Part shown: one piece after another, positions 3,237-8,564 of the stretch
Layout: each line of letters opens with the position of its first letter
How positions within the stretch are numbered: position 1 is the stretch's first letter
IMG/VR virus record: IMGVR_UViG_3300046323_000368
Coordinates: 1 to 23,112 of that record
Reading direction: 5' to 3' (one strand)
From: a virus
DNA length: 23,112 nucleotides
Notes under the pieces: model-generated
Told to the model about the DNA's origin: nothing
The model's database searches: none
Seen by the model: only the letters and a program-made list of their open reading frames with translations
Translations under genes and position numbers: made by a program

Positions 3237-3540
3237 GATCAACTTCAAAATCAACCCCGACGCAACCTTGCCCATTGCCTGCCCGCAATGCAGCGAGAAG
3301 GAGGACCAGCTTGTCAGTCGGTTGCGCGGCAACCCGGATTTGGTTTGCGGGAGTTGTGGATTGACCTTCAACGTCAACGCCGACCAGATCGACGCTGTGC
3401 TCAAAATGTTCAAAGGCTTGAATCGCTAGCCACTTTAACCAGGCCGGAGACTGGTCTAGCAGAGCGCTCAACTCTTGGGCTAAAGCTCGAAGCTCTGTTG
3501 AATCGCACTGAATGTCTAAAGTTATGGGTCCGGTGGGCAT
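3229..3540 (-). CDS. small leftward ORF coupled to the duplicated Cro-tail ORF
   Basis: A 103-codon ORF beginning MPTGPITLDIQCDSTEL. Its ATG at 3540-3538 overlaps the stop of the upstream ORF as TGATG, a typical coupling arrangement. The first 37 residues or so (helical, with ALAQELSALLDQ) look like a genuine protein start. From about 3429 leftward the frame runs antisense through the zinc-ribbon gene, and that part may be an accidental continuation. It may be an old gene whose 3' part was replaced when the zinc-ribbon cassette arrived. The product was not recognised. Confidence 0.4.
   Translation of the reverse strand: MPTGPITLDIQCDSTELRALAQELSALLDQSPAWLKWLAIQAFEHFEHSVDLVGVDVEGQSTTPANQIRVAAQPTDKLVLLLAALRAGNGQGCVGVDFEVDHE
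3235..3429 (+). CDS. small zinc-ribbon protein
   Basis: A 64-residue protein with two Cys pairs, CPQC at residues 16-19 and CGSC at 38-41, the spacing of a single treble-clef or zinc-ribbon fold. No other domain is visible. The start at 3235 is chosen over an in-frame ATG at 3190 because AAAGGGG lies about 7 nt upstream and the 3190 extension is leader sequence. It runs against the surrounding leftward operon, and its leader is the hairpin element at 3173-3234. An extended -10-like TGCTATGCT lies at 3186-3194 without a good -35. It probably binds nucleic acid or a protein partner; its expression may be confined to lysogens, when the leftward promoter is silent. Confidence 0.75.
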   Translation: MINFKINPDATLPIACPQCSEKEDQLVSRLRGNPDLVCGSCGLTFNVNADQIDAVLKMFKGLNR

Positions 3541-3773
3541 CAAACACCCCCAGCCAAAGCCGCAGCCAGCGGCGCACGGCGCTCGTGGTCGGGGTGCGGC
3601 GGGTTATTGGTTTGACGGCGGTCGGGGCCGGAGCGGGCGGCGGCTGCAGGCGCTACGGTTTCAGTAGCCGCCCTTGCGGCGGCAAGCTCATAACCGGCCA
3701 CAAAGATGCTCGCCACCTCGCGGGGCAAAATAGAAGCTTCAACACAACCATCCCCGCGAGGGGCGAGCAACAC
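3540..3773 (-). CDS. small ORF carrying a copy of the Cro-like protein's C-terminal tail
   Basis: A 77-codon ORF from a GTG at 3773 to the TGA at 3542-3540. Its last 28 residues are identical to the last 28 of the Cro-like protein encoded at 4194-4574, although the DNA differs at five positions there. All five are third-codon-position changes. That pattern argues the tail is or was translated on this strand in both places. The first third (GDGCVEASI) resembles the start of the ORF at 3236 and overlies a hairpin. No clear Shine-Dalgarno is seen at the GTG, so the start is uncertain. The ORF may be a remnant whose N-terminal part was lost when the rightward gene at 3775 was inserted. Function unknown. 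Confidence 0.4.
   Translation of the reverse strand: MLLAPRGDGCVEASILPREVASIFVAGYELAAARAATETVAPAAAARSGPDRRQTNNPPHPDHERRAPLAAALAGGV
3541..3664. repeat. 124-bp direct repeat, copy A
   Basis: It aligns without gaps to 4195-4318, with 109 of 124 positions identical by hand count (about 88%). The first 30 bases are identical, differences cluster near positions 91-108 of the repeat, and the last 14 bases are identical again. It encodes the shared C-terminal tail on the minus strand. Confidence 0.85.
3708..3768. other. long hairpin element, copy 2
   Basis: Arms 3708-3725 and 3752-3768 are almost perfectly complementary over 17 bp, with one unpaired base, around a 26-nt loop containing ACACAACC (GGTTGTGT on the other strand). 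The right arm carries GAGGGGCGAG, the ribosome binding site of the rightward gene at 3775. On the leftward transcript a second small GC-rich hairpin follows at about 3668-3684. This is the same design as at 3173-3234. Confidence 0.7.
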
Positions 3774-4193: not shown

Positions 4194-4574
4194 TCAAACA
4201 CCCCCAGCCAAAGCCGCAGCCAGCGGCGCGCGGCGCTCATGGTCTGGGTGCGGCGGGTTGTTGGTTTGGCGGCGGTCGGGGCTGGTGTGTGTGGCGTTTT
4301 GGGGCGCTACGGTTTCAGGAGCTGCTTGCGCTTGTGTTTGTTGGGATTCGGCCAGTTCAGGCCAGTAAAAAGCGTATTTGTCCGGCCAGCGTTCTTTACG
4401 TGTGAATCGCCCTTGCGACTTGATCTCAATTTGTCCCGCCAATTCGCGCAGTCTGTATTCAGGGATGCCCTTGCCCTCCATCAGCCACTCGTACACCGAC
4501 GGCGGCTTGATGTCCAGCATTCGAGCAACACATGGCACACCACCCAAGACATTGATGATTTCAAAATCGTTCAT
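4194..4574 (-). CDS. Cro-like repressor (YdaS/Cro-type HTH) with a duplicated tail
   Basis: The first gene of the leftward operon, 126 residues. Residues about 8-45 form a Cro/YdaS-type helix-turn-helix (GGVPCVARMLDI, then SVYEWL and GIPEYRLREL). The usual Cro length is 60-80 residues. Here a low-complexity Gln/Ala/Pro linker (about 75-97) leads to a 28-residue Arg/Pro/Ala tail that also ends the ORF at 3540. No ribosome binding site precedes the ATG. A promoter (-35 at 4609-4604, -10 TATACT at 4586-4581) would start transcription exactly on its A, so the mRNA is predicted to be leaderless. It probably binds the operators at 4586-4645, with CI opposing it. Confidence 0.8.
   Translation of the reverse strand: MNDFEIINVLGGVPCVARMLDIKPPSVYEWLMEGKGIPEYRLRELAGQIEIKSQGRFTRKERWPDKYAFYWPELAESQQTQAQAAPETVAPQNATHTSPDRRQTNNPPHPDHERRAPLAAALAGGV
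4195..4318. repeat. 124-bp direct repeat, copy B
   Basis: The partner of 3541-3664, encoding the C-terminal tail of the Cro-like protein on the minus strand. The two copies share the stop codon, and each is followed at once by a coupled start codon (TGATG in copy A, TGAGATG here). Confidence 0.85.
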
Positions 4575-4580
4575 CAGTGC

Positions 4581-4609
4581 AGTATAGGCATACCTTATTT
4601 AAAAGTCCA
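4581..4609 (-). promoter_or_regulatory. leftward early promoter (PL-like)
   Basis: Read on the minus strand: -35 TGGACT (4609-4604), a 17-nt spacer, -10 TATACT (4586-4581), and predicted +1 at 4574, the A of the cro ATG. Operator O1 fills the spacer and touches the first base of the -10. O2 starts one base upstream of the -35. The rightward promoter at 5810-5838 has exactly the same arrangement, which supports the call. Confidence 0.7.
4586..4595. promoter_or_regulatory. operator O1 (AGGCATACCT)
   Basis: A palindromic site of the form AGGYNNRCCT within a wider near-palindrome (4583-4598, TATAGGCA/TACCTTAT). Its centre is 25.0 bp from O2. Confidence 0.75.
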
Positions 4610-4610
4610 T

Positions 4611-4620
4611 AGGCAAACCT
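4611..4620. promoter_or_regulatory. operator O2 (AGGCAAACCT)
   Basis: The middle one of three evenly spaced sites, one base upstream of the leftward -35. Its centre is 25 bp from both O1 and O3. Confidence 0.75.
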
Positions 4621-4635
4621 CATATTTTTTAAACT

Positions 4636-4645
4636 AGGCTAGCCT
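4636..4645. promoter_or_regulatory. operator O3 (AGGCTAGCCT)
   Basis: A perfect 10-bp palindrome ending one base before the start codon of the repressor gene at 4647. Binding here should block the repressor's own transcription or translation start, giving negative autoregulation. A weak -10 (TAAACT, 4630-4635) with no good -35 precedes it, so the repressor mRNA may also be leaderless, like lambda cI from PRM. Confidence 0.75.
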
Positions 4646-4646
4646 T

Positions 4647-5063
4647 ATGCAAACAACACTCGCTGATCGTTTGAAGTACGCCATGGCAGGCCCGCCCAAA
4701 ATAACCGGGCTGGCATTGGCCAAAGCATGCGGCGTGTCCCAGCCATCTGTAAGCGACTGGCTAAATGGCACCACAAAAAGCATGGATGGCGTTAACCTGA
4801 TCGCCGCAGCCGAGTTTTTACGCGTCAACCCCAAATGGCTGGCTACAGGGCTCGGCTTAAAAATTGATCCGCCGTCCGGTCAAAGTGGAATTGCTAGAGA
4901 ACCTGTAGAGCCCTATTGCTTCGACAAGTGGACATCCGAAGCAATTCGACTTTTTAAGAGCCTGCAACAACACCAGCGCGAAGGCGCACTCGCTGCTTTA
5001 AAAACGCATATAAGCCATCTGGATACACCCGAAAACGGCCAAACTCTACGCATGGCCGGATAA
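4647..5063 (+). CDS. CI-like prophage repressor without a LexA/S24 peptidase domain
   Basis: A 138-residue repressor. Residues about 5-45 form an XRE-type HTH (LADRLKYAMA, LALAKACGVSQPSVSDWLNG). Next comes the NPKWLATGLG segment (61-70) that normally precedes the peptidase domain of CI/LexA-like repressors. Instead of the S24 serine-lysine protease (about 100 residues), only a 65-residue helical tail follows (FDKWTSEAIRLFKSL). RecA-stimulated self-cleavage is therefore not expected, and induction probably needs Cro, an antirepressor or another signal. It is divergent from cro across three operators. No Shine-Dalgarno is visible before the ATG. Confidence 0.85.
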   Translation: MQTTLADRLKYAMAGPPKITGLALAKACGVSQPSVSDWLNGTTKSMDGVNLIAAAEFLRVNPKWLATGLGLKIDPPSGQSGIAREPVEPYCFDKWTSEAIRLFKSLQQHQREGALAALKTHISHLDTPENGQTLRMAG

Positions 5064-5147
5064 ACAGAGGGAAAGGCCCAGGCAACAAAAACAAGATCAT
5101 CCGGGCCAACAAGAGTTAAAGTTCGAAAGCCAGAGCCGTCCGCTCAT

Positions 5148-5177
5148 TTGACATCGTTAAATCTGGAAAGCTATAAA
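5148..5177 (+). promoter_or_regulatory. strong constitutive promoter of the SLATT-like gene
   Basis: Consensus -35 TTGACA (5148-5153), an 18-nt spacer and -10 TATAAA (5172-5177), with predicted +1 near 5184. This leaves a leader of about 83 nt before the ATG at 5267. No AGGYNNRCCT operator is nearby, so it should stay active in a lysogen. Confidence 0.65.
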
Positions 5178-5288
5178 ATGCCTGATGACTACAGGGCGCA
5201 TGTACCCCCACGGCCGTTGCCGCCCCCAGCACCACCACCTTTGCGAAACGATCAAAAGGCCAGCAAATGTCAAACGAACGCGGCATAA
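5178..5288 (+). CDS. possible 36-residue proline-rich peptide overlapping the SLATT-like gene
   Basis: The frame runs MPDDYRAHVPPRPLPPPAPP and then on to a TAA inside the next gene (22-bp overlap, different frame). GGAAAG lies 7-8 nt upstream of the ATG. Runs of Pro-Pro-Pro would slow ribosomes unless EF-P helps. However, the promoter at 5148-5177 would start transcription after this ATG, so it could only be made from read-through of the repressor transcript. It may be an upstream regulatory ORF or chance. Confidence 0.3.
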   Translation: MPDDYRAHVPPRPLPPPAPPPLRNDQKASKCQTNAA

Positions 5289-5734
5289 CACTGAATGAAA
5301 TTCGATACGCTGAAAGGCTTTGCCAGCGCACAGCCAGGCTGTATCGACACGTCCAGAGCTTTGGCACTTGGCTTACCGTAGTCGGCGGTAGCGGCACGCT
5401 TGCCGCGCTTGCAAACAATGTACCCAATTGGGTGCCGATTACCGGTGCAATCGTGTTCGCCGCTGCCGGAGCTGCGCTTATCGCCATGCGGCCAGCAGAC
5501 AAAGCAGCCATGAATGAAGCCGATGCCAAACGGTACGCAGCACTCCGCACTCGGGGCCTTGGGCTTGACGACAAGGCCCTTCGCGCGGCGCTTGAGGAAG
5601 CCAGGCAATCAGATGTTGCCGAAGTTGAAGCCCTGCGTGACGTGGCCTGGAACGACGTAGTACAAGAAGTGGGCTATGCAGACAAAAGGGTGTTGCTTTC
5701 AATACCGCAGCGTTTACTTTCTGCCATCGCGTAA
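5267..5734 (+). CDS. SLATT-like two-helix membrane protein (candidate superinfection-exclusion or defence moron)
   Basis: A 155-residue protein with the layout of SLATT-type membrane effectors: an N-terminal charged helix (AERLCQRTARLYRHV), two adjacent membrane segments (about residues 31-49 and 54-74) with a very short turn, and a C-terminal cytosolic helical part rich in Ala, Glu and Arg that ends in an aromatic-poor tail. SLATT proteins are predicted pore-forming effectors in nucleotide-signalling defence systems. Here no sensor or cyclase gene is adjacent. It has its own promoter (5148-5177), an AAAGG binding site and its own terminator (5757-5779), and lies just after the repressor, the place of rexAB in lambda. 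The membrane topology is clear; the SLATT assignment is by resemblance and moderate. Alternatives are an unrelated inner-membrane exclusion protein or a holin-like toxin. Confidence 0.6.
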   Translation: MSNERGITLNEIRYAERLCQRTARLYRHVQSFGTWLTVVGGSGTLAALANNVPNWVPITGAIVFAAAGAALIAMRPADKAAMNEADAKRYAALRTRGLGLDDKALRAALEEARQSDVAEVEALRDVAWNDVVQEVGYADKRVLLSIPQRLLSAIA

Positions 5735-5756
5735 GCCAGTCCAACACCCCTAGCAG

Positions 5757-5779
5757 CCCGTCCGGAACGGGTTTTTTTT
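5757..5779 (+). terminator. Rho-independent terminator after the SLATT-like gene
   Basis: A stem CCCGT/ACGGG around a CCGGA loop is followed by eight T residues (5772-5779). It insulates the rightward early promoter that begins 20 bp later from repressor and moron transcription. Confidence 0.85.
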
Positions 5780-5798
5780 CCTTCATCCGAAAATACTT

Positions 5799-5808
5799 AG
5801 GTTTACCT
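5799..5808. promoter_or_regulatory. operator O4 (AGGTTTACCT)
   Basis: Ends one base before the -35 of the rightward early promoter. Its centre is exactly 25 bp from O5. Confidence 0.75.
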
Positions 5809-5809
5809 A

Positions 5810-5838
5810 TTGACAAACAAATAAGGTTTACCTAATAT
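5810..5838 (+). promoter_or_regulatory. rightward early promoter (PR-like)
   Basis: -35 TTGACA (5810-5815), a 17-nt spacer and -10 TAATAT (5833-5838), with predicted +1 near 5845. O4 abuts the -35 and O5 fills the spacer. It is the only promoter seen for the operon 5880-14513. Confidence 0.8.
5824..5833. promoter_or_regulatory. operator O5 (AGGTTTACCT)
   Basis: Same core as O4. It occupies the promoter spacer and the first base of the -10, exactly as O1 does on the leftward promoter. Confidence 0.75.
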
Positions 5839-5847
5839 TCACCCCAA

Positions 5848-5864
5848 CCCGCAATTCCTGCGGG
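5848..5864 (+). other. 5'-end hairpin of the rightward early transcript
   Basis: A perfect 6-bp stem CCCGCA/TGCGGG with a 5-nt loop, starting about 3 nt after the predicted transcription start and lying before the GGAGTGA binding site. No T-run follows, so it is not a terminator. It could protect the mRNA 5' end or bind a regulator. Confidence 0.4.
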
Positions 5865-5879
5865 AAACCGGAGTGAAGC

Positions 5880-6494
5880 ATGCAGACACAGCAACCCGCA
5901 ACCGCCAGTGCAGACGCTGGCACAGTCAGCCTCGACTACCAGACTTGCCGCAACCGCCGCGAGGCGGCTGAAGCCGAGCTAGCCGAGCTAGAACTTGCAG
6001 AGCGACAGGGCCAGCTGATTCGTGTTGACGGCGTTACCGCGCTGATTAATCGATCAAAGAACCTTGTATTGACGCAGGCCCAGCTGAACAGGCCCGAGGG
6101 CGTTCGGTTTGCGCAAGGCGCGATCAATGCCTATCGTTCAATTCTGCGTGATGCAGGGCAGCTTTTAGCGCGAAGAGACGCTAAATTACCAAGCGGCTAT
6201 TTGCCGTTTACAGACTTCCAGGCTGCTTGGGCCAGTTTGCCCGACAACATTGAACACATGACCGTGGCCGAGGTGCAGGATTTCTTGCACACCCACGGCG
6301 TAGAGATCGCCACTGACACGGTCACCAACGGCAACATCAATGGTGTCGTAAAGCTCAAAGACGACGTGGTCACCGCCATCGACCAGCACGATGAACATGA
6401 TGCCGCGCCTGCTGATGTGGGTAATGGTGCCGGTTGCCATGCTGAATCCGTGGGAGTTGAAAGCCAGATTTTGGCTGAAGGCAATGCAGCATGA
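5880..6494 (+). CDS. first gene of the rightward early operon, unknown, with coiled coil
   Basis: 204 residues, not recognised. Residues about 20-45 (RNRREAAEAELAELELAERQ) form a strongly charged coiled coil followed by GQLIRVDGV. That segment recalls the middle of phage Nu1-like small terminase or regulatory proteins, but the N-terminal HTH of that family is missing. The C-terminal 45 residues are Asp/His/Ala-rich and probably disordered. Binding site GGAGTGA is 4-10 nt upstream of the ATG. As the promoter-proximal gene it should be made first and most; a regulatory or host-takeover role is a guess. Its end overlaps the next gene by 4 bp (ATGA). Confidence 0.75.
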   Translation: MQTQQPATASADAGTVSLDYQTCRNRREAAEAELAELELAERQGQLIRVDGVTALINRSKNLVLTQAQLNRPEGVRFAQGAINAYRSILRDAGQLLARRDAKLPSGYLPFTDFQAAWASLPDNIEHMTVAEVQDFLHTHGVEIATDTVTNGNINGVVKLKDDVVTAIDQHDEHDAAPADVGNGAGCHAESVGVESQILAEGNAA

Positions 6495-6790
6495 CCCGCC
6501 ACCTCAACACTGCCGTCCTCGTGCTGCTGTTTGCAGCCTTGCTCGCCTACATCGGCCCAGCCCTCGACACGCCCGACCACAGCGCCGAATGGCCCACCAG
6601 CACCGAGCTGCAAGCCCTGCAGGCCACCCAGGCAGGCACAGCCCGCCGCGAAGCCGCAGCACAAGCCCTGTGCACCGCTGAGCGCGGCCCGCAGTCTGAG
6701 GCGCGCTGGACGCCTGAAGGCCACCTTGTGTGCACTGCCCGTGCCCGCACCGCAAGAAACACCATCACGATTTTGGAGCCCAAGCTATGA
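6491..6790 (+). CDS. unknown small membrane-anchored protein
   Basis: 99 residues with one N-terminal membrane segment or signal anchor at about 6-22 (TAVLVLLFAALLAYIGPAL). A soluble Ala/Arg-rich region of about 75 residues follows, holding two cysteines about 20 residues apart (CTAERG and VCTARA) that could form a disulphide outside the cytoplasm. It overlaps both neighbours by 4 bp (ATGA at 6491 and 6787). Function not recognised. Confidence 0.7.
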   Translation: MTRHLNTAVLVLLFAALLAYIGPALDTPDHSAEWPTSTELQALQATQAGTARREAAAQALCTAERGPQSEARWTPEGHLVCTARARTARNTITILEPKL

Positions 6791-7134
6791 GCACCTTTAC
6801 CCCTACCGTCTGGCTGCTGCTTGGCTTGACCGTTTTTTTATCGATGGCCGTTGGCGCGCTGATCGTTACGAAGCTGATCAACCGCGACTGGGAGCAAATG
6901 ACGGGCGAGCCCATGTTTGGCGAGCCACCCTACCGCACCGCCAGTGCGGCCACCATCAAAGCGCAGACGCGCCAGATCATCGCCAAGGCCAATGCCAACA
7001 TGCAGGCCGCGATAACGGTCAAAAGTGAATGCCCATACCCGGACAAATGCGGGCAAGGCCGCAAGTGCGCCTGCAAACCCAGCACGGCCACCGCTGACCG
7101 TGCAGACAACTGCACAGCACCCCCAGCCGCCTGA
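6787..7134 (+). CDS. unknown membrane protein with cysteine-rich cytosolic tail
   Basis: 115 residues. One strong membrane segment lies at about 8-30, then a helical region, then a compact cysteine cluster (C82, C88, C94, C96 in CPYPDKCGQGRKCAC, plus C109) that could bind a metal. The start at 6787 is chosen by the ATGA overlap with the preceding gene; an upstream in-frame ATG at 6730 lies inside that gene. With the preceding gene it forms a pair of early membrane proteins, possibly acting together. No family was recognised. Confidence 0.7.
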   Translation: MSTFTPTVWLLLGLTVFLSMAVGALIVTKLINRDWEQMTGEPMFGEPPYRTASAATIKAQTRQIIAKANANMQAAITVKSECPYPDKCGQGRKCACKPSTATADRADNCTAPPAA

Positions 7135-7144
7135 AAGCACAGCC

Positions 7145-7558
7145 ATGCTTGCCGAGCCAACCGTCGACCCAGTTGTCGCCAAGCCGCGCGCGCTGGTGTG
7201 CGTGCGCGTGTTTCTGCGCATGCGCCCCGGGCCTTGCGCAGCCAGCGCCGCCGCTGATGCAGAGCGCGGCTACATCCTGTTCGGCAAAGACACCACCGGC
7301 GCGCTCAATGGCGACTTTAGTGGCCGCTGGCTGGGCACACAGGCTCTGCAGTTTGTCAAAGACTTTGAGGCAGAGCTGGTACCCGGCCGCTGTGTGGACC
7401 TGCAAGTCACCAACATTCGCCCGCAAGGCGCAGAGCTACGCGCCGACATCGTTACCTGCCAGCTCGCACCCCTGGCCCCCAGCTGGGTCCGCCACGCCGA
7501 AAAAGCTACCCCTATCACCACCGCCACCACCACAACAACCGAGACCCAACCCGCATGA
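7145..7558 (+). CDS. unknown phage early protein
   Basis: 137 residues. A conserved-looking core (about 15-115) with alternating beta and helix pattern (LVCVRVFLRM, VDLQVTNIRPQGAELRADIV) ends in a Thr-rich low-complexity tail (ITTATTTTT). The start at 7145 is preferred over in-frame codons from 7025 because the earlier ones lie inside the preceding gene. Its upstream GAAAG is a weak binding site. It overlaps the next gene by 4 bp. Function not recognised. Confidence 0.65.
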   Translation: MLAEPTVDPVVAKPRALVCVRVFLRMRPGPCAASAAADAERGYILFGKDTTGALNGDFSGRWLGTQALQFVKDFEAELVPGRCVDLQVTNIRPQGAELRADIVTCQLAPLAPSWVRHAEKATPITTATTTTTETQPA

Positions 7559-7764
7559 GCACGCTTAAACACACCGAAACACGGTTAGAGCAATGCCAGC
7601 GCAAGCACCTGTACACCGGGCGCGAGCTGCAACCCAACAGCACCCGTCCCGGCGCGATGGACGCCTACAGCCTGCCCAGCGTGGTCGCAGGCGTGCGCAT
7701 TGCCCGCGTCATGCCCCTTTGCGCGCCCACCACCACCAAAACCACCATCAGCACCAAATATTGA
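7555..7764 (+). CDS. unknown small early protein
   Basis: 69 residues with a charged N-terminal helix and a Thr/Lys-rich C-terminus (PTTTKTTISTKY), not recognised. It starts in an ATGA overlap with the previous gene and ends 2 nt before the nucleotide kinase gene, so it is translated as part of the same chain. The Thr-rich ends of this and the preceding protein come from similar ACC-repeat DNA. Confidence 0.6.
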   Translation: MSTLKHTETRLEQCQRKHLYTGRELQPNSTRPGAMDAYSLPSVVAGVRIARVMPLCAPTTTKTTISTKY

Positions 7765-7766
7765 TC

Positions 7767-8564
7767 ATGACCAAACTAAACACCCCTACCATCATTGGCC
7801 TGACAGGCCTGGCAGGCAGCGGCAAAGACACCGTAGCCGACTTGCTCATCTGCCATGTCGGCTTTCAAAAGCTGGCTTTTGCCGACAAGCTACGCGCCGA
7901 GGTGTGCGAAGCCTTTGGCATCGAGCCGCTGCTACTCACCCACCGGGCCACCAAAGAAGAGCCGCACAAAGCACTGTCTTTGGGCATGTGCAAAGACCAC
8001 GGCTTGGTCGGCGCGTTGCTGCACCACAGCGCGCTAGACCACGAGGACGGCACCCACAGCGAGATACTGGCCAGGCCACGCAGCCCAAGGCAAATCATGC
8101 AGTGGTGGGGTACTGAACACCGCCGCTCCCAGCACGCTAATTACTGGACGTGGGCAGTCACCGCCCGCATCAACGACGGCATTCGCAGGGGCCACATGGC
8201 CCACGTCATCACCGACGTGCGCTTTGAAAACGAGGCTGAAACCGTCCGCAACATGGGCGGCACCATCTGGCAAATCAAGCGACCAGCCATGCGCCCCATC
8301 ACGGCAGACGACTACACCAAAGCCGAGCAGGCCAGCCACGTGAGCGAGGTTGACGGCAGCCAGTTCGCGCCAGACGTGGTGATCAACAACAGCCACGACA
8401 TCAGGCACCTTCAATCGGTCGTGATGGGCGCGTGGCTGATGGGCTACACCGGCATGAGCGCGCAAGAAATCTGCAACATGGGCCTGGCTCATACCGACAT
8501 GGCCTGCCAGCAATGGGGCACGTATGGCAAAGCGCTGGCAACTAAAGCGCAGAAAGCCGCATGA
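7767..8564 (+). CDS. deoxynucleoside monophosphate kinase
   Basis: 265 residues. It phosphorylates dNMPs to dNDPs with ATP in the cytoplasm to feed phage DNA synthesis. The N-terminal P-loop is clear (GLAGSGKDT, residues about 14-22) and is followed by the ADKLR segment common to phage dNMP kinases. The middle motif QIMQWWGTEHRR and the later ITDVRFENEAE (the D-V-R-F-x-N-E signature) also fit this family, as does the length. The reading frame is open upstream to 7593, but the ATG at 7767 gives the P-loop its usual place near the N-terminus. It is part of the coupled early operon. Confidence 0.85.
   Translation: MTKLNTPTIIGLTGLAGSGKDTVADLLICHVGFQKLAFADKLRAEVCEAFGIEPLLLTHRATKEEPHKALSLGMCKDHGLVGALLHHSALDHEDGTHSEILARPRSPRQIMQWWGTEHRRSQHANYWTWAVTARINDGIRRGHMAHVITDVRFENEAETVRNMGGTIWQIKRPAMRPITADDYTKAEQASHVSEVDGSQFAPDVVINNSHDIRHLQSVVMGAWLMGYTGMSAQEICNMGLAHTDMACQQWGTYGKALATKAQKAA

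Follow-up and report, generated by a model that had tools for sequence, protein, structure and literature searches.

A proline-rich micro-ORF directly precedes a predicted SLATT-fold membrane gene behind a phage repressor

The DNA analysed here, referred to as the window, is a 23,112-nucleotide stretch of viral sequence in which, as the first-pass annotation described, an open reading frame of 155 residues with two predicted membrane helices lies just behind a repressor gene. The question raised by this locus is whether the gene acts by itself, as a 'stand-alone', 'one-gene' exclusion system, or together with a partner. A micro-ORF immediately in front of it, overlooked in that earlier reading, points to the second answer. 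The explanation favoured here, which stands about an even chance of being correct, is a cassette for prophage-borne exclusion, whose encoded peptide would control a SLATT-fold effector of the pore or channel type, either keeping it quiet or tuning it, until infection tips the balance.

Layout and predicted control of the locus

The membrane gene is placed between the repressor gene and the early operon, which is the position of rex in phage lambda (Table 1); this rex position and a promoter of the lysogen type, both put forward earlier, are supported by the layout and the promoter scans. No known RNA was found in the window, with neither Rfam matches nor tRNA genes. To the left of the repressor gene, a direct repeat of 132 nt (3540-3671 and 4194-4325, 87% identical and 654 nt apart) makes the C-terminal ends of two ORFs of the window, one of them the Cro/YdaS-like gene, almost identical.

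Table 1. Genes and putative control elements around the membrane gene of the window
Feature	Position	Strand	Basis or remark
Cro/YdaS-like regulator	4194..4574	(-)	divergent from repressor; Pfam YdaS_toxin 4.4e-7, P22_Cro 9.3e-7
Three repressor-operator-like sites (4585, 4610, 4635), 25 nt spacing	4585..4645		pattern scan; putative
Short CI-type repressor, HTH only, 138 aa	4647..5063	(+)	HTH_3 1.2e-6; PHROG repressors phrog_4, phrog_2328
Predicted sigma70-like promoter TTGACA-N18-TATAAA, operator-free	5148..5177	(+)	sequence scan
Possible ribosome-binding site GGAAAG of micro-ORF, within promoter stretch	5165..5170	(+)	sequence
Micro-ORF, 36-aa proline-rich peptide, AHVPPRP motif; unannotated	5178..5288	(+)	last 22 nt overlap membrane gene start
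Predicted SLATT-fold membrane protein, 155 aa; TM segments ~31-49, ~56-74	5267..5734	(+)	ORF list, model, hydropathy
Intrinsic terminator-like hairpin + T8	5755..5779	(+)	terminator scan, sequence
Two repressor-operator-like sites (5798, 5823), 25 nt spacing, in early promoter	5798..5833		pattern scan; putative
Operator-bearing early promoter TTGACA-N17-TAATAT	5810..5838	(+)	promoter scan
First gene of next early operon, outside cassette	5880..6494	(+)	weak terminase-small-subunit-like PHROG match

Among the sigma70-like sites of the window, only the operator-bearing early promoter at 5810 outscores the near-consensus promoter proposed for the membrane gene. When 2000 sequences were drawn from a first-order Markov model built from bases 4601-5300, TTGACA-N16-19-TATAA[AT] appeared in one of them. 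The site is unlisted by the automatic promoter scan because that scan requires T as the last base of the -10 box, which here is A. The claim that the promoter is free of repressor operators also stands, as none of the five window matches to the operator-like pattern [AT]AGG[CT][AT][AT][AG]CCT lies near 5148: three fall between cro and the repressor gene and two in the 5810 promoter, with neighbouring sites exactly 25 nt apart. This pattern was derived from the two control regions themselves, and its bare core, AGG-N4-CCT, has ten matches in the window. A hairpin followed by T8 is present behind the membrane gene, in agreement with the terminator proposed for it, though its folding energy is unremarkable (z -0.4) and the scan returned about as many such sites from the window (5) as from shuffled sequences (4.0).

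The -10 box of this promoter abuts the ATG of the micro-ORF. Such an arrangement, counted wherever a box scoring at least 6 began no more than 12 nt before the micro-ORF start, recurs at 16 of 20 family loci, compared with 1 of 184 control starts; because of the relatedness of the loci, P values for this comparison overstate it, and the start in L049 was set one codon late. The four loci in which no such box was counted are L043, L052, L063 and L066. The same comparison speaks against reading TATAAA as no more than the spacer behind a ribosome-binding site, and the stretch from 5148 to 5177 is retained under both readings, as a putative promoter and as the probable start region of the micro-ORF.

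If a discriminator of 7 nt is assumed, the predicted RNA start falls at codon 2 or 3 of the micro-ORF. Since this is after its ATG, the membrane protein should be the sole product of that RNA, and the micro-ORF must be read from RNA begun further upstream. The scan placed no terminator-like site on the same strand between the repressor gene and the cassette, and the repressor transcript can therefore cover both cassette genes. Two transcripts differing in gene content are thus predicted.

A selected reading frame in front of the membrane gene

The micro-ORF of the window encodes the 36-codon product MPDDYRAHVPPRPLPPPAPPPLRNDQKASKCQTNAA. Each of the 24 close loci, made up of the window, 21 viral contigs and the two loci L031 and L034, has a micro-ORF directly before the membrane gene with the motif H[VIKRA]P[PQ][RK], and across 18 compared loci the longer [KR][SAGF]HxP[PQ][RK] is retained. 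Codon-position variation in these 18 is concentrated at the third position (1.71 bits, compared with 0.43 at the first and 0.57 at the second). Among 20 loci, the ratio of nonsynonymous to synonymous change is 0.15 in the micro-ORF frame and 8.0 and 12.2 in the other two; the underlying single-base codon differences, synonymous to nonsynonymous, are 810:123 in frame and 111:887 and 82:1002 out of frame, all counted from locus pairs that are not independent of each other. The micro-ORF frame is under strong selection. In the 20 loci its stop codon lies anywhere from 25 nt inside the membrane gene to 20 nt before its start, with an overlap in 5 of them. With a selected micro-ORF directly in front of it in every close locus, the description of the membrane gene as a solitary unit is not supported.

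Among more distant relatives the micro-ORFs are less alike but mostly still proline-rich, and several have a clear Shine-Dalgarno sequence; in several family loci none precedes the micro-ORF. Of 14 distant members found in a PHROG 11791 search and assigned by eye, 11 have a clear proline-rich ORF, two a weak one (L026, L041) and one none (L027). At newly found distant places such an ORF is present in 12 of the 15 examined, no recognisable micro-ORF being seen at L102, L103 and L104; at L087, L088 and L090 a gap of 57-88 nt separates it from the assumed membrane gene start, and that of L087 has only five prolines.

By one and the same automatic count, an upstream proline-rich ORF was found for 11 of 13 family genes and for 5 of 456 other genes, and a motif of the H.PP[RK] type occurred by chance in two of these 456, without a proline run. 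All six places with a SLATT match above the curated cut-off (two SLATT_4 and four SLATT_1) were devoid of the micro-ORF, the most proline-rich upstream frame having 4 P in 18 aa. The SLATT_1 controls are limited to the only four places over the cut-off, five below it looking unrelated or unclear. The remaining NCBIfam SLATT_4 places, all below the cut-off, also had no such micro-ORF; one of these, L085, does not look SLATT-like by eye. In profile searches with the micro-ORFs, no Pfam match had an E-value under 2 (three tried), and PHROGs gave no match (five tried). A Streptomyces peptide, PepX, for which the term 'SLATT' appears in the accessible part of its description (PMC11256431), is hydrophobic and unrelated.

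The main rival explanation takes the micro-ORF as a regulatory leader, in which a ribosome pausing on the proline run would set the translation of the membrane gene and the peptide would have no later function. Three consecutive prolines occur in 24 of 31 micro-ORFs, a sequence that stalls ribosomes unless EF-P helps, according to the portion of PMC4176338 that was available, and the closeness of the stop codons to the next start in the 20 loci would suit such a role. However, PPP is absent from the other seven, one of which (L054) has a QP repeat instead; the constrained H-x-P-[PQ]-[RK] precedes the proline run in the close clade, and the lengths of the 31 micro-ORFs vary from 23 to 59 aa. 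Taken together, a stalling leader seems unlikely.

Family, fold and genomic setting of the membrane protein

By sequence the window protein belongs to PHROG 11791 (1.4e-11) and PHROG 6315 (8.2e-9), its actual family, for both of which the function is recorded as unknown. Relatives emerged only through the PHROG 11791 profile, and later in viral contigs: tblastn with the window protein gave no match in 50,697 phage records or in plasmids, and single-protein scans with it gave none in viral or genome contigs. The profile search of one order gave members in 15 of 399 genomes, of which L040, a spurious match within a histidine-kinase-like ORF, was removed to leave 14. When the search was widened with alignment A2, members turned up in 6 of 369 genomes at the level of the class and in 14 of 398 at that of the phylum, partly the same as the earlier finds; L091 was discarded for an internal stop, which left 15 of 16 new places for examination. 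Two scans of viral contigs found the family in 21 distinct contigs at 45-60% identity, some of them alike (L046/L047, L054/L055, L066/L072 and L063/L067/L068). With other members as queries, L034 matched no plasmid record, and L046 and the second copy in L048 no phage record. The tandem in that last contig consists of two distant members (7267-7770 and 7971-8438), each with its own proline-rich micro-ORF.

The first-pass annotation predicted a charged helix, two adjacent membrane helices and a helical tail of the SLATT type. The helical layout agrees with an AlphaFold2 model built on an 18-sequence alignment, A6, that includes 17 relatives (pLDDT 92.5, pTM 0.82); prediction from the single sequence was unusable (pLDDT 44.1). 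In the all-helical model (helices 3-48, 55-74, 76-97, 102-113, 121-135 and 146-154), a long N-terminal helix continues into the first transmembrane segment, followed by the second and by four more helices, which is the SLATT architecture of a long N-terminal helix, two adjacent transmembrane helices and a helical C-terminal part. The first membrane segment (31-49) is only mildly hydrophobic, with a Kyte-Doolittle value of 1.15, and the second (56-74) reaches 2.1. Among the conserved parts of the protein are R13/Y14, Y26 and the stretch V126-D130.

In BFVD, a library of viral structures, each of the first 7 of 209 fold matches bears the label SLATT or 'SMODS and SLOG-associating 2TM effector', and they belong, judged by organism names, to large DNA viruses; their Foldseek probabilities are 0.92-1.00, with E-values from 6e-3 to 9e-2 against the tool's line of 1e-3, and the match is therefore support for a SLATT fold rather than proof of it. 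No related structure was found in the PDB: its fold search returned no SLATT entry among the matches listed, which are helical-bundle background (Z 7.6 or less), and of two sequence searches one gave a best E of 0.11 with no plausible relative and the other nothing.

Of the 18 sequences in A6, 17 match the NCBIfam profile SLATT_1 and 14 match SLATT_4, weakly (best 1.2e-7), and in A2 SLATT_4 is matched by 11 of 17 and SLATT_1 by 8 of 17; two PADLOC profiles of 2TM effectors match 7 and 4 of the 17 A2 members. The window protein itself stays under the curated cut-offs (21.1 of 55 bits for SLATT_4, 16.1 of 41 for SLATT_1) and has no SLATT match in Pfam. Among A2 members, Pfam SLATT_1 was matched by 2 of 17 (0.059) and Trp_oprn_chp also by 2 of 17, with a better E-value (0.0013). 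Hence the SLATT-like fold is supported by model, fold matches and recurrent weak profiles, and, because the cut-offs are unreached and a Pfam SLATT match is absent in the window protein, the protein is best described as having a predicted SLATT fold while belonging to no curated SLATT family.

In 13 of the 21 viral contigs the membrane gene is preceded on its own strand by a gene recognised as a regulator, the status of L047 and L068 being taken from ORF identity with L046 and L067, that of L049 from weak PHROG matches only, and the regulators of L045, L046 and L059 falling below the Pfam cut-off, with PHROG repressor support for L046. A repressor-like gene, so judged by eye, is found downstream and convergent in L066 and L072, and the contig of L043 ends before the regulator position; in L051, L052, L053, L064 and L070 no same-strand upstream regulator was seen within the stretch listed. 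Small genes resembling HNH endonucleases, with signal-like N-termini by eye, are placed between repressor and cassette in L048 (6731-7138, a weak resemblance) and L049 (7596-7907). In L052, two genes on the opposite strand (5481-6901) lie beside the family member: one, next to it, is weakly similar to metacaspases (6.9e-5), and the other looks TIR/ThsB-like by eye and has no PDB match.

The description of the membrane gene as a moron-like accessory gene is borne out by related loci. None of 16 viral loci with a related primase, some of which stop short of the slot, carries a copy, and in the genomes and records behind the primase-bearing loci PHROG 11791 was found in 0 of 9 and PHROG 6315 in 0 of 20, six viral records being common to both sets. 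In L003 and L011, which are near-identical and have related cro and repressor genes, the slot is filled by other membrane- or lipoprotein-like genes. It is on account of this absence and replacement that the slot is regarded as accessory.

With L026 and L097 as queries, the sole phage record found was Pseudomonas phage TC7, isolated from hospital sewage and related to phage MD8 according to the accessible text of PMC8508860. Its distant member, TC7_041, lies right behind 'repressor protein C'. An unannotated proline-rich ORF of 50 codons (L115 3859-4011), with the strong Shine-Dalgarno sequence AAGGAG in front, stops a single nucleotide short of an ATG of the membrane gene, and it is within this ORF that TC7_041 has its annotated start. 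The micropeptide has been overlooked by annotation in TC7, and probably elsewhere too.

The position behind the repressor, the predicted 2TM topology and the lysogen-type promoter would also suit a surface or DNA-entry exclusion protein of the SieA or HK97 gp15 type. Such a protein would block genome entry by related phages, with neither pore nor suicide, and the micropeptide would aid its folding or help it find a partner. The fold neighbours of the window protein are, however, SLATT proteins, which the available portions of PMC7159879 and PMC12632851 treat as predicted pore-forming effectors, and exclusion at entry is accordingly quite improbable.

Proposed role and relation to known systems

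The exclusion cassette favoured here would be a lysogenic-conversion unit of two genes behind the repressor, for a micropeptide and a 2TM inner-membrane protein, and it probably guards infected bacteria against rival phages. The repressor transcript would carry both genes, and the second promoter, its -10 box abutting the micro-ORF start codon, would yield RNA for the membrane protein only. The membrane protein may be an effector that forms a channel or pore and that the micropeptide silences or tunes, its simplest role being that of a gatekeeper. An infecting phage could upset the balance, for example by halting synthesis of a short-lived peptide, whereupon the effector would act and the infection would be aborted. 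A bolder version, offered tentatively as a possibility, is that this is a new minimal two-part exclusion module, in which the micropeptide gates the effector directly and the ratio of peptide to effector, not a nucleotide signal, decides the outcome. The literature covered, which took in at most a minority of subscription journals, yielded no report of a proline-rich micro-ORF paired with a SLATT gene.

The view of the first-pass annotation, that a single self-sufficient SLATT gene provides exclusion and the micro-ORF is irrelevant, would gain from the recurrent promoter, whose RNA should lack the start codon of the micro-ORF, and from the distant members without one (3 of 15); the retention of the micro-ORF in every close locus, under selection in the 20 tested, makes it highly improbable. 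That the membrane protein responds to a nucleotide signal from host or phage, as proposed for the SLATT proteins of CBASS, TIR and reverse-transcriptase systems, is hardly to be expected, despite its fold, the metacaspase-like gene beside the L052 member and the SLATT genes beside TIR genes in firmicute phages (reported in the accessible part of PMC9503650), as nothing recognisable as a signal-making enzyme adjoins the gene in the window and its identified neighbours are phage genes. More widely, the ORF list and partial family scans of the window revealed no gene recognised as a nucleotide-signal enzyme, SLOG, TIR or reverse transcriptase.

If the cassette is what it appears to be, the gating of SLATT proteins could be tested with two small genes, in a family that is widespread in prophages and brings its tiny partner along, and the isolated phage TC7 is a place to study it. 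The slot behind the repressor gene can also hide coding sequence that annotation overlooks.

SLATT proteins were reportedly defined by Burroughs in 2015. The window protein resembles the SLATT effectors (NCBIfam SLATT_4 and SLATT_1, Pfam PF18186 and PF18181) in its all-helical 2TM model, in the label of its best viral fold matches and in the weak recurrent NCBIfam matches of its family, which differs in falling below the curated cut-offs and in its linkage with a phage repressor and with a micro-ORF rich in proline. SLATT proteins are predicted to form pores, as stated in the available portions of PMC7159879, PMC12632851 and PMC12483538. In DRT10, which combines a UG17 reverse transcriptase, an ncRNA and a SLATT protein, the SLATT gene is needed for phage defence according to the accessible part of PMC12632851; the cassette shares the SLATT-type protein, here by predicted fold, but has no recognised reverse transcriptase, and no Rfam match was found in the window. 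In a possible parallel to toxin-antitoxin pairs, the small upstream gene lies close to the downstream one or overlaps it.

In lambda, an internal promoter (LIT) serves rexB, comparable to the predicted second promoter of the cassette. Like the RexAB systems of lambda and Pseudomonas putida, as they are described in the available portions of PMC12894663 and PMC11077077, the cassette stands directly behind the repressor gene and joins a putative membrane effector to a second product. It differs in that a peptide of 23-64 aa, in the window a 36-aa product with no Pfam match, takes the place of the DNA-binding RexA, and in that RexB has four transmembrane helices and the window protein two predicted ones.
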